Of a stretch of DNA of 64,000 nt, positions 21,159-56,774 are shown piece after piece; position 1 is the first letter of the stretch, and every line of letters begins with the position of its first letter. The position numbers and the translations under genes were made by a program. The notes beneath the pieces were generated by a model that did not search any database, was not told the origin of the DNA, and saw nothing but the letters and a program-made list of their open reading frames with translations. Source of the DNA: Algoriphagus chordae (GTDB taxonomy: Bacteria; Bacteroidota; Bacteroidia; Cytophagales; Cyclobacteriaceae); the NCBI RefSeq assembly GCF_003254055.1, contig NZ_QKZT01000008.1:124001-188000 (forward strand), given 5' to 3'.

Positions 21159-22420
21159 GTAATTCCAACAAAAGAACTCCATGGATCTGGATTCCCTCCC
21201 TCTATATGACCGAAGGAGTTCCTTATATAGTCATCATCGTCGTATCGGTGATTATGTACAAAAAGCTAGGCGTTTCCAATGCAGACATCGGTTTGTACAC
21301 GAGTTTACTCTATCTCCCTTGGGTAATCAAACCTATCTGGAGTCCAATAGTAGATCTTTTTGGCACCAAGAGAAAATGGTTTCTCAGTATGCAATTGGTC
21401 CTAGCCCTTGCTTTTTTGGGAGTTGGTCTGACTACTGGAGGAAGTAATTTCTTCTACATGACTTTGGCGTTTTTCTGGATGGGCGCTTTTGCCTCTGCGA
21501 CAAATGACATTGCCTCCGACGGCATGTATCTGATCGCTTTGAAACCCGAGCAGCAATCCTTTTTCGTAGGACTTCGTGGCACATTCTATAGAATCGGGAT
21601 GATCACAGGTCAAGGATTGATCGTGATGGTGGCGGGCTATCTGGAAACCAGTTTGGGTGATAACAGCAAAGCTTGGTCTTGGACGATGATTATCGTGGGA
21701 GCATTGATGCTTTTACTTACAGCAATTAATTTCCTAGCTACGCCAAAAATAGAGGAGGAAGCACCTGATAAACCTGCACGAGAAGCGAGTTTTGGCAAAG
21801 TATTCTCAACCTTTTTCACCAAGAAAAACATCGGAATCTCGCTGGCATTTGTACTTGTCTATAGACTTGGTGAATCTCAATTGGTGAAAATGGCTTCTCC
21901 GTTTTTACTAGATGTCAAAGAAAAAGGAGGATTGGCATTAAGCACGTCGGAAGTTGGGTTTATGTATGGAACGATCGGCGTGATCGCTTTGCTGCTTGGG
22001 GGAATTCTCGGTGGAATAGCCATCTCCAGAGATGGATTGGGTAAGTGGATGATCCCGATGGCTCTTTCTCTCAACCTACCCAATCTGCTTTACATAGGAT
22101 TGGCACATTTCCAACCCGAGAATATTTTCTTCGCAGGTACTGTCGTAGTCATCGAGCAATTTGGCTATGGTTTTGGCTTCGCTGCCTATATGATCTTCCT
22201 TATTTACTTAGCAGAAGGGCTTTTCAAAACGTCGCATTATGCACTGGCGACCGGCTTTATGGCTATGGGAATGATGTTTCCGGGGATGCTATCTGGCTAT
22301 ATCCAAGAATGGCTTGGCTACACTGGATTCTTCATCTGGGTGGGAATTGCTATGATTCCTGCACTAGCGATTGCTGCGAGTGTTAAGTACCCGAGGGAAT
22401 TTGGGAAAAAGCTTGAGTGA
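21155..22420 (+). CDS. MFS transporter, AmpG/PAT-like
   Basis: 421 aa, 12 predicted membrane helices. It has the AmpG-like signatures: ITWIPSLYMTEGVPY start (residues 12-25), LPWVIKPIWSPIVDLFGTKRKW after helix 2, and a ASATNDIASDGMYL helix 4 as in muropeptide permeases. Acidic Asp pairs in helices 2-4 suggest proton coupling. By context it would bring anhydro-muropeptides or amino sugars into the cytosol, where the NagZ-like GH3 encoded next could act. General sugar import is the alternative. Confidence 0.85.
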   Translation: MSNSNKRTPWIWIPSLYMTEGVPYIVIIVVSVIMYKKLGVSNADIGLYTSLLYLPWVIKPIWSPIVDLFGTKRKWFLSMQLVLALAFLGVGLTTGGSNFFYMTLAFFWMGAFASATNDIASDGMYLIALKPEQQSFFVGLRGTFYRIGMITGQGLIVMVAGYLETSLGDNSKAWSWTMIIVGALMLLLTAINFLATPKIEEEAPDKPAREASFGKVFSTFFTKKNIGISLAFVLVYRLGESQLVKMASPFLLDVKEKGGLALSTSEVGFMYGTIGVIALLLGGILGGIAISRDGLGKWMIPMALSLNLPNLLYIGLAHFQPENIFFAGTVVVIEQFGYGFGFAAYMIFLIYLAEGLFKTSHYALATGFMAMGMMFPGMLSGYIQEWLGYTGFFIWVGIAMIPALAIAASVKYPREFGKKLE

Positions 22421-54016: not shown

Positions 54017-54526
54017 CTACTGGACTAACCTAGAATTTAAAAAAGGCAGCCATTCCTCAGCTTGTCTTTCGGCATACTCAGACAAGAAAAAGGCTAATGA
54101 TGGCTTGAAGGGCACTGATTGAATACTGAGTCCAGCTTGTTCGGGGCTTTTATCGCCTTTTAAAACATTGCATCTATGACAGGCTGTAGTCAAGTTGGTC
54201 CAGTTGGACTTTCCTCCTTTGGACCTTGGCACTACATGGTCTATGGTCAACTGTCGCCTACTTCCACAATATTGGCACTCCCCCCGATCTCTTCGAAAAA
54301 GATTGACTCGGTTCAGTAAAACGCCACGGTAAGGGATGTTTTTGTAGTGATTCAAACAAATCACGGCTGGGTATTCATAACTACGGGAAACCGTGCGGAT
54401 CTTGAGTAAATCATACACCGAAAGACAATTTGCTTTCTCCAAAAGAAGCAGAACAATGGCTTTTTGTGGCGACACTACCGCCACGGGAGAATGATCCAAA
54501 TTCAATACCAATACCCGCTTTTCCAT
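54017..54526 (-). CDS. HNH endonuclease domain protein
   Basis: 169 aa. The zinc-finger HNH site is CQYCG, then LTIDHVVPRSKGG (catalytic His), NLTTACHRCNVLKG (second Asn/Cys pair). The N-terminal 70 residues (KRVLVLNLDHSPVAVVSPQKAIVLLL) are the conserved companion domain of the solitary HNH family found in many Bacteroidota, Cyanobacteria and Actinobacteria. No restriction or toxin partner is nearby, so it is probably a chromosomal house protein of unknown target. Starts 3 bases after the end of the NlpC-like gene. Confidence 0.92.
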   Translation of the reverse strand: MEKRVLVLNLDHSPVAVVSPQKAIVLLLLEKANCLSVYDLLKIRTVSRSYEYPAVICLNHYKNIPYRGVLLNRVNLFRRDRGECQYCGSRRQLTIDHVVPRSKGGKSNWTNLTTACHRCNVLKGDKSPEQAGLSIQSVPFKPSLAFFLSEYAERQAEEWLPFLNSRLVQ

Positions 54527-54529
54527 AGT

Positions 54530-55327
54530 TTAACTTAAAATCGATCGAGTCTCTATCTCCACCTGTTTATCCTTACTAGATCGCAAAAAGGTCTCCCATT
54601 CAGTCAAATCAGAAACCTTTATTTTATTGTCCATCCAAAACACCTCTTCTGCCCCAAGATACAAGGCATACTTGACATGGGCTGTTTCTAAGTCCTTGAA
54701 AATAAATAAATCACCTGGCAATACGAGCTCAGGATCAATTTTTCTACCTGGAATTTGTCCTGATTTCCAAGAATAGCCTGCGATGCCAAAAATCAATTCA
54801 AAGCCTTGTCGCTCATCCAAACCAAAAATACTCCTACCTCCAGCCTGATAGGGCGCATTCACATATTTGATCGCAATATCAATCAACTCTGTCCTACTGG
54901 CTTTCAAAGCATGGCTACGTACAGAACCTGTGAAACCTATATGATCCTGCCAATTGAAAAGCTCCAAATCTGAGAAATGGAGTCTACTCCCCGGCAACAA
55001 ATAAAGATTGGTTCCTAGATATTCTATAGCTGCGATGGGACTTGTGACCACCTGAAAGTCTGTATTGAGAAATTTATAATAGTCAGCTCCGGGAATTTCT
55101 TTGAGAGCATGAGTGGCAATCCAGCCCTGAATTCCTGTGTCCTCGTGTAGTATTTTGAACCATTGCTGATCCGAGGTCATCGCTATCGTCTGATAGCATT
55201 CCCCAAAAAGTAACTGTGTCAGCATGGCTGAATCAAAAGTGGGTCTGCGGTAAAGAGGTAAAATCGTTTGCCTACAGATCCCATAAGCATCAATCAAAGG
55301 CCATTCGCTTGATTTCTCTTTTCGCAT
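54530..55327 (-). CDS. NlpC/P60-like protein lacking the catalytic Cys
   Basis: 265 aa. N-terminal SH3-like domain (YGICRQTILPLYRRPTFDSAMLTQLLFGE region, residues about 15-85) and a second SH3-like segment precede a C40/NlpC-P60 fold from about 150: PYQAGGRSIFGLDERQGF, HVKYALYLGAEEVFW. Where active members read GxDCSGF, this one reads GLDERQGF, so the nucleophile Cys is missing, while the His-bearing strand is kept. The frame is continuous. It begins 38 bases inside the smpB 3' end; no cleaved signal peptide is visible, so location is unclear. It may be a non-catalytic cell-wall binding protein. Confidence 0.8.
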   Translation of the reverse strand: MRKEKSSEWPLIDAYGICRQTILPLYRRPTFDSAMLTQLLFGECYQTIAMTSDQQWFKILHEDTGIQGWIATHALKEIPGADYYKFLNTDFQVVTSPIAAIEYLGTNLYLLPGSRLHFSDLELFNWQDHIGFTGSVRSHALKASRTELIDIAIKYVNAPYQAGGRSIFGLDERQGFELIFGIAGYSWKSGQIPGRKIDPELVLPGDLFIFKDLETAHVKYALYLGAEEVFWMDNKIKVSDLTEWETFLRSSKDKQVEIETRSILS

Positions 55328-55757
55328 CTTTTTCCTTCAAATCCTGTCTTTTGTCGTGTGTTTTCTTACCTCGACCCAGCGCAATTTCCATTTTGGCCAT
55401 CCCTCTGTCATTGATAAATATACGAACAGGAATGATAGTCAGCCCCTTTTCTTGTGACTTAGTTTCAAGTTTCTCAAGTTCCTTTTTGCTGAGCAGCAAC
55501 TTTCTATCCCGAATCGCCACGTGATTATAACTTGCCGCCATCGAATACGGTGAGATGTGCATCTGACGCACGTATAATTCTCCATCCAGAAAAATGCAGA
55601 ACGCCTCAGTCAGGGAAACCTTAGCTTCCCGAATCGACTTGATCTCTGTACCTTTCAGTACCATACCAGCCACATAAGTGTCCACAAATTCAAATTGAAA
55701 ACTTGCTTTCCTATTCTTTATATTGATGACTTTGTCAAACTTATTATCCTTAGCCAT
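55290..55757 (-). CDS. smpB: SsrA-binding protein SmpB
   Basis: 155 aa. Binds tmRNA and brings it to stalled ribosomes for trans-translation. OB-fold landmarks: KVINIKNRKASFQFEFVDTYVAGMVLKGTEIKSIR (split), the TEAFCIFLDGELYVRQMHISPY block and the basic tail GRGKKTHDKRQDLKEKDAKREIKR, which enters the ribosome. Length is standard. Overlaps the NlpC-like gene by 38 bases and follows tsaD by 3 bases, so the three are probably co-transcribed. Confidence 0.98.
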   Translation of the reverse strand: MAKDNKFDKVINIKNRKASFQFEFVDTYVAGMVLKGTEIKSIREAKVSLTEAFCIFLDGELYVRQMHISPYSMAASYNHVAIRDRKLLLSKKELEKLETKSQEKGLTIIPVRIFINDRGMAKMEIALGRGKKTHDKRQDLKEKDAKREIKRMAFD

Positions 55758-55760
55758 TGC

Positions 55761-56774
55761 TTAAATTTTCATTTTTGCGAGAGGAGTGACATCCATAGAT
55801 GAAAATTCTCCTTTCAGGTATTTGTAATGTGCTGCCATGGCAATCATAGCGGCATTATCTGTACAGTATTCGAATTTTGGAATGTACAAGTTCCATCCTT
55901 TTTCCACAGCCAGCTTAGTCAAGGTATCTCTCAAGCCAGAGTTGGCGGATACTCCCCCTGCTATTGCCACTTCCTTCACGCCATATTCCTTCACCGCGGC
56001 CTTCAATTTGATCAGCAGCATTTCTACAAGAGAATATTGCACGCTGGCACAAAGATCAGCCAAGTTTTCTTCGATGAACTTCGGGTTCTCTTTCAATTGA
56101 TCGCGAAGAAAATAAAGTACTGCCGTCTTTATCCCCGAAAAGGAATAATTCAATTCAGGCATCCGGGTGATTGGAAATTTGTACGCTTTAGGATTTCCTT
56201 CCTTCGCATATTTATCAATAAGCGGACCACCTGGGTATGGTAAACCTAGCAGTTTGGCAGTCTTATCAAAAGCCTCTCCTACCGCATCATCCTGAGTCTC
56301 CCCAATCACTTCCATATCCAGATGATCTCTCACCAAGACCAGCTGCGTATGTCCACCACTCACTGTCAGACAAATAAAGGGGAAATTTGGCTTAGGATCC
56401 TCTATGAAATGAGCCAAAATATGCGCATTCATATGATTCACCTCGATCAGCGGAATATCTAGAGAAAAAGCAAATGCCTTGGCAAAACTCACTCCGACAA
56501 GTAGTGAGCCCATCAATCCTGGCCCCCGAGTGAATGCAATGGCTGATAGCTGAGACTTGGAAATTCCTGCGGTCAAAATAGCCTCTTGAACCACTGGGAT
56601 AAGATTTTCCTGATGAGCACGCGATGCAAGCTCAGGAACTACACCCCCATATTTTTCGTGAACAGATTGTGTGGCGACAATATTATTAAGTACTTTGCCG
56701 TCAGCTATTACAGAGGCAGAGGTCTCGTCACACGAGGATTCAATTGCTAGAATAAAGATATCGTTGGTACCCAT
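55761..56774 (-). CDS. tsaD: tRNA threonylcarbamoyladenosine transferase TsaD
   Basis: 337 aa. Transfers the threonylcarbamoyl group to A37 of ANN-decoding tRNAs with TsaB/TsaE. Landmarks: AIESSCDETSASVI start, the metal-binding HMNAH motif, SGGHTQLVLV, GEAFDKTAKLLGLPYPGGP, and AGGVSANSGLRD near the C-terminus. Starts head to head with tamB: its ATG and the tamB start share one base. Confidence 0.98.
   Translation of the reverse strand: MGTNDIFILAIESSCDETSASVIADGKVLNNIVATQSVHEKYGGVVPELASRAHQENLIPVVQEAILTAGISKSQLSAIAFTRGPGLMGSLLVGVSFAKAFAFSLDIPLIEVNHMNAHILAHFIEDPKPNFPFICLTVSGGHTQLVLVRDHLDMEVIGETQDDAVGEAFDKTAKLLGLPYPGGPLIDKYAKEGNPKAYKFPITRMPELNYSFSGIKTAVLYFLRDQLKENPKFIEENLADLCASVQYSLVEMLLIKLKAAVKEYGVKEVAIAGGVSANSGLRDTLTKLAVEKGWNLYIPKFEYCTDNAAMIAMAAHYKYLKGEFSSMDVTPLAKMKI

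Follow-up and report, generated by a model that had tools for sequence, protein, structure and literature searches.

A putative pseudopeptidase beside smpB in Algoriphagus: a DPP VI/YkfC-type orthologue whose catalytic machinery appears to have been lost repeatedly within one family

The window analysed here, a stretch of 64,000 nt from the genome of Algoriphagus chordae, carries beside smpB a gene whose product is best explained as a cytoplasmic pseudopeptidase. It would be a one-to-one orthologue of the dipeptidyl-peptidase VI (DPP VI)/YkfC type without the catalytic set, in which a non-catalytic role, probably that of a protein-binding partner, has outlived catalysis; we put the probability of this reading at about 0.7. 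Sequence comparison and structure prediction together demonstrate the same locus, the same fold, the lost catalytic residues, purifying selection and several changes of state. The protein shares its locus and predicted fold with orthologues whose catalytic set is intact and has lost the nucleophile, as expected of an NlpC/P60 pseudoenzyme.

One orthologue at one locus has seemingly passed from enzyme to non-enzyme several times within a family, in stages that range from a few changes to a wholly rebuilt site. They offer a natural series on which to examine whether pseudoenzymes stem from ancestors with a pre-existing non-catalytic function. A C40 peptidase label may be given to these proteins by automatic annotation, which on the Cys-less copies would be contradicted by their sequences.

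Gene, predicted fold and genomic position

The gene (54530–55327, minus strand) is an uninterrupted frame of 265 aa, open throughout as the initial annotation had stated. Its product has the three-domain SH3b1-SH3b2-NlpC layout of DPP VI/YkfC, as judged from a Pfam SH3_16 match (residues 25–75, E 3.2e-9) and from whole-length fold matches. With approximate boundaries, the first SH3b domain, which is that matched by SH3_16, spans residues 14–80 in the model (55088–55288, minus strand). The second, SH3b-like domain spans residues 85–135 (54923–55075, minus strand); it was undetected by Pfam, and was delimited from the model, the fold matches and divergence. The NlpC/P60-like domain, its catalytic site erased, takes up residues 140–265 (54533–54910, minus strand) according to the model, the alignment and a Pfam NLPC_P60 match that is sub-threshold (E 0.069; 13.6 bits, gathering cut-off 23). 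Among other members of the window's clade, L183 (44.6 bits) and L189 (46 bits) pass this cut-off, and the Pfam search of L172 gave no NLPC_P60 match. No signal peptide was seen when the N-terminus was read by eye. The closest relative among the best 80 of 452 loci is that of A. winogradskyi, with 89% identity.

The NlpC/P60 fold of the window protein is predicted to be intact. Its AlphaFold2 model (mean pLDDT 88, pTM 0.85) and the model of a Cys-bearing Marivirga orthologue, L198 (mean pLDDT 90.8, pTM 0.88), both have the DPP VI/YkfC structures 3npf, 3h41 and 4r0k as top PDB fold matches, obtained for the window protein with Foldseek (E 7e-13 and TM 0.74 against 3npf). When the window protein alone served as query against solved structures, no NlpC/P60 relative came up (best E 1.8), and the family profile was needed for a sequence match to DPP VI; its best matches were the DPP VI entries 3pvq (2.3e-27) and 3npf.

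The neighbouring genes, all on the minus strand, are tsaD (55761–56774; NCBIfam TIGR03723, 2.7e-124), smpB (55290–55757; NCBIfam NF003843, 7.2e-54) and, as conserved downstream neighbour, a gene for an HNH protein (54017–54526; Pfam HNH, 3.9e-15). The order tsaD-smpB-pseudopeptidase gene-HNH is common to Cys-bearing and Cys-less copies; 124 of 129 rows have smpB, and 109 of 129 the HNH gene, on the same strand, some loci ending early. Given these shared neighbours, the Cys-less proteins stand in the enzyme's own place and are not additional paralogues accompanying an active copy. The initial proposal that the gene is maintained between smpB and the HNH gene agrees with this conserved order and with the purifying selection described below. 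As a separate observation, the top-scoring models for the HNH part of the downstream protein were those of IscB and Cas9d, with scores well short of the cut-offs.

A family-profile search of 196 genomes of one taxonomic family (f1), drawn evenly from a larger group, identified one orthologue each in 126 genomes, 83 Cys-bearing and 43 Cys-less, and none in the other 70 at the threshold used (E 1e-30 or better). These 126 genomes are the 129 rows less three duplicates (L077, L099 and L108), and the Cys-less count includes L118, in which the region is deleted. By genus, 40 had Cys throughout, 15 lacked it throughout and one (g75) was mixed. The orthologue alignment left out the duplicates L033, L034, L077, L099 and L108 and the unrelated NlpC loci L001 and L002.

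Active site and ligand pocket

Where Cys-bearing orthologues read GIDCSGF, the window protein reads GLDERQGF, the replacement on which the initial annotation was built. In the alignment, the catalytic Cys position is occupied by Glu172 (codon 54812–54814), the catalytic His position by Lys219 (54671–54673) and the position of the third catalytic residue, a His, by Trp231 (54635–54637; all minus strand), and the Cys, the His and the third polar residue are all missing. Over seven scored positions, Tyr-Trp-Asp-Cys-Ser-His-His of the Cys-bearing orthologues has become Y-A-D-E-R-K-W. Both the SH3-like domains and the His strand had initially been described as remaining; the strand is present in the model (E218–225), but the catalytic His is not kept, since its column holds Lys219 and the third catalytic column Trp231. 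Nor did the alignment columns bear out the idea that another Cys, Glu or Asp might take the site, because Asp171 and Glu172 are not common to the whole clade and no residue has clearly replaced the nucleophile.

All 84 Cys-bearing rows have the full Tyr, Trp, Asp, Cys, Ser, His and His set, one row being gapped at one His. Both His columns hold His in 20 of the 45 Cys-less rows; in the remainder, at least one of the two has another residue or a gap. Among the named loci, which lean towards close relatives because they are the best 80 of 452 matches, Cys is missing from the nucleophile column in 69 of the 69 readable members of the window's clade, including Algoriphagus, Anditalea, Litoribacter, Pararhodonellum and Echinicola; the 70th, L180, is truncated and not readable there. 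It is also missing in L190, L193 and L199 (Dawidia soli), and is present in seven of these best 80 loci, among them two of Marivirga and one of Fulvivirga. L123 has a Cys in the column adjacent to that of the nucleophile.

The ligand pocket was assessed from published contacts. According to PMC2954226, BcYkfC contacts L-Ala-γ-D-Glu with its free N-terminus through Trp228, Asp237, Ser239, Arg255 and Asp256. The window protein keeps the Asp alone (Asp171), the Trp, the Ser and the Arg-Asp pair being lost, and in the alignment its clade likewise lacks Trp162, Ser173 and the Arg-Asp pair. Judged from sequence by these contacts, the L-Ala-γ-D-Glu pocket of the window's clade is dismantled along with the catalytic residues, and binding of the old ligand is unlikely in the window protein because only Asp171 is kept. 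The earlier description of a binding-only or repurposed protein is right about the loss of the C40 catalytic set, and 'binding-only' is not supported as worded. The window protein resembles DPP VI/YkfC (3npf of B. ovatus, 4r0k and 3pvq of B. thetaiotaomicron, 3h41 of B. cereus) in its two SH3b domains and NlpC/P60 fold, and differs from it in that the catalytic Cys, the His, the third His and most pocket residues are replaced.

The scored columns form a graded series. At one end stands genus g66, two of whose five genomes have only the Cys replaced; g18 is intermediate, and at the other end, in the window's clade, little of the set is left. Ligand binding is possible, as judged by the retained columns, in g66; in L035, one of those two genomes, the Asp of the Arg-Asp pair is also lost. 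Genus g18 holds different stages of decay side by side, the former Cys-Ser columns reading Ser-Gln in L040 (with a Cys one place earlier), Ala-Ser in L085, Gly-Val in L039 and Ala-Asn in L080. In L118 (G018:C100) of the window's clade, a 161-aa ORF on the minus strand, an in-frame deletion has taken out the larger part of the second SH3b domain and of the NlpC-like domain and left the first SH3b domain and the C-terminus; it could be a real deletion or an assembly fault.

About 1% of NlpC/P60 proteins lack the Cys/His dyad, according to PMC2954226, and inactive NlpC/P60 domains are already known. RipD of Mycobacterium tuberculosis (4lj1, 4jxb; NCBIfam NF033743), both structures of which are among the fold matches of the window protein, is one example: according to PMC6628586, it has no hydrolase activity, consistent with its catalytic-site changes, and is predicted to be secreted, and the title of reference 52 of that paper calls it peptidoglycan-binding. 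In contrast, the window protein looks cytoplasmic and lies beside tsaD and smpB; unlike RipD, it keeps the DPP VI SH3b domains and has same-locus orthologues with an intact catalytic set. In the open-licence literature we found no case of a DPP VI orthologue at one locus that had been inactivated repeatedly, and as far as that literature shows, the single-locus series and the smpB overlap described below are new.

The window's genome encodes two other NlpC/P60 proteins. One is an exported YkfC-like lipoprotein (L200, 5978–7150 on the minus strand of contig C4, genome G000), which shares the SH3b and NlpC/P60 domains of the window protein and differs from it in having intact GVDCSGF, RDASQQ, HVGM and IHSRG motifs and, as read by eye, a lipoprotein-like signal.

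Changes of state and selective constraint

On trees built from the neighbouring genes tsaD, smpB and HNH, the Cys state changed five to seven times. The 94-row tree gave six changes, at least five of them forced by starred branches; the 125-row tree, in which the outgroup did not hold together, gave seven, three of them forced; and a careful search with 65 rows gave five, four of them forced, under a simpler model and with a warning of two long branches meeting. A single origin occurred in none of the 200 bootstrap trees of the 65-row set, which ranged from five to six changes. The gene tree, with active-site columns removed, also gave five changes, two of them forced, and the forced minimum is therefore tree-dependent (two in the gene tree; three, four or five in the neighbour trees). 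Rows with fewer than two neighbour genes, all Cys-bearing, were dropped from the 94-row tree (18 rows) and the 125-row tree (nine rows), and the 65-row tree took no more than two rows for each state in a genus, each with at least 400 residues, with L118 excluded. Because regaining a complete catalytic set is improbable, we take the changes to be losses, and the catalytic machinery appears to have been lost several separate times in one family.

The Algoriphagus copies are under purifying selection, with a dN/dS of about 0.06 (median 0.064, from those 92 of the 1770 pairs among 60 named Algoriphagus-type loci that had dS of 0.1–1.5); the medians of the three neighbours in Algoriphagus-type loci were 0.050–0.057. 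In a set of 22 selected pairs that included 20 of the window's clade, the dN/dS of the gene was 0.015–0.104 in the 19 clade pairs that gave a value, and those of smpB, HNH and tsaD were of the same order and mostly lower, all of these values being rough because many pairs had dS above 1. Relative to smpB and tsaD, the gene evolved at a rate ratio of 2.0–3.9 in the window's clade, which is Cys-less, 1.1–5.5 in the other genera that lack Cys throughout (a single pair gave the maximum) and 0.85–2.8 in Cys-bearing genera. This faster evolution than that of the neighbours, together with a dN/dS of 0.23 over nine pairs in the Cys-less genus g48, indicates that constraint is partly relaxed in Cys-less copies, which counts against the pseudopeptidase reading. 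Among the Algoriphagus copies, conservation is highest in the second SH3b domain and lowest in the NlpC-like domain. As a trait of Cys-less copies in general, such a shift of constraint was rejected (P=0.16 over Cys-less genera, not significant).

Overlap with smpB and retention of the protein

In the window's clade, the gene likely starts 32–38 nt inside smpB. In the window, the two ORFs overlap by 38 nt (55290–55327, minus strand), and 91 of the 93 clade rows have an ATG within smpB, at 38 nt in the Algoriphagus type and at 32–35 nt in the others. For the other two, L008 and L183, the script anchor was misplaced and only a further-upstream ATG was listed; their MQKE start was read by eye. 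L118 also has the clade's start inside smpB. Outside the clade, none of the 73 rows with a listed ATG starts more than 4 nt inside smpB; 84 outside rows had an assessable smpB, 11 of which, L075 among them, list no ATG, and the two collections may share species. At the end of Algoriphagus smpB, the relative entropy of synonymous variation was reduced (0.40 over 11 codons versus 0.79 over 117; permutation P=0.00027); the comparison with other clades rested on two usable codons. The N-terminus encoded by the overlap is under weak constraint (dN/dS 0.41), and a TTG eight nucleotides inside smpB, read by eye in the window, could be the start instead, so that the long overlap is likely and not proven. 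A second stretch of low synonymous variation, nearly as low, lies about 41–54 codons from the 3′ end of Algoriphagus smpB.

Our preferred reading is that the ancestor was probably a cytoplasmic, predicted γ-D-Glu-diamino acid peptidase of the DPP VI/YkfC type. Since catalysis was repeatedly lost and the protein kept, it can be argued that this enzyme already had a second, non-catalytic role; once cytoplasmic murein-peptide cleavage became dispensable, the active site would have decayed and the protein would have been retained for that other function. An overlapping start would then have tied the gene to smpB in the window's clade. The most likely mode of action would be that of a non-enzymatic protein-binding partner or scaffold working through the SH3b domains, given that little is left of the murein-peptide pocket. 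The second role would not be universal, given the 70 family genomes without an orthologue at the threshold. The position by tsaD and smpB hints at translation, but weakly, since Cys-bearing copies occupy it as well. It is a rather improbable extension that the hidden role is linked to SmpB and ribosome rescue, that the enzyme was discarded several times, and that the overlap in the Algoriphagus clade locks the pseudopeptidase to co-production and joint action with SmpB.

Retention could be explained in other ways. The protein might be a murein-peptide sensor or sink that binds L-Ala-γ-D-Glu peptides without cutting them, for which the YkfC contacts are known (PMC2954226), RipD is an earlier example of an NlpC/P60 domain that lacks hydrolase activity (PMC6628586), and two of the five g66 genomes keep Tyr, Trp, Asp, Ser, His and His with only the Cys changed to Ala. 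We consider this unlikely: with Trp162, Ser173 and both members of the Arg-Asp pair gone, proteins of the window's clade should no longer bind these peptides, and the Asp of the pair is missing even from L035 of g66. A relocated nucleophile or new chemistry in the same cleft is less probable again. Cys44 and Asp171 show no variation among the 68 Algoriphagus-type rows, where Trp231 reaches 94% conservation, and by motif residue 43 may match Glu83 of YkfC, the neighbour of Thr84, which lines the pocket (PMC2954226). However, the other 24 clade rows mostly have Thr at 44, Gly at 171 and His at 231, and the His column holds His in only 42% of the Algoriphagus-type rows.

A highly improbable alternative is that the protein is idle and the gene kept merely through its overlap and shared transcript with smpB. 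The start codon inside smpB would fit, but the overlap covers only the first 12 or so codons, purifying selection on the amino acids extends far beyond it, and other Cys-less clades lack such an overlap where a start is listed. As for a sequencing error, strain mutation or young pseudogene, for which the initial annotation had named an orthologue alignment as the check, we give it almost no credence: nothing emerged in its favour, it is refuted by the orthologues' shared loss of the Cys (all 69 readable clade loci, from many species, among the best 80 of 452), and the frames are intact with dN/dS about 0.06.

Candidate causes of the losses were sought among related functions. Redundancy with the exported YkfC lipoprotein was set aside: counted as a full-length match at E 1e-99 or better, the lipoprotein was present in 23 of 37 Cys-less and eight of 43 Cys-bearing genomes tested, a difference with only two independent contrasts on starred branches, and four of five Algoriphagus genomes are without it. 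The same four Algoriphagus genomes, in which the full-length match to L200 is missing, keep an epimerase-like gene. Loss of an L-Ala-D/L-Glu epimerase was rejected as a cause in the window's clade, where the epimerase-like query L208 had a close match in 24 of 24 genomes tested; among Cys-less genomes, 12 of 37 had only a weaker match. The best PDB match of L208, 3iji, presumably is an L-Ala-D/L-Glu epimerase; its record is named muconate cycloisomerase, and the next best match is a dipeptide epimerase. Mpl reached the cut-off in none of the 80 genomes among the matches listed, and the AmpG family model had few matches in Cys-bearing genomes as well. The window itself encodes an AmpG-like permease (21206–22375, plus strand; TIGR00901, E 1.1e-50, below the curated cut-off), and an AmpG-like match was present in all five Algoriphagus genomes and in 14 of the 80 genomes tested overall.
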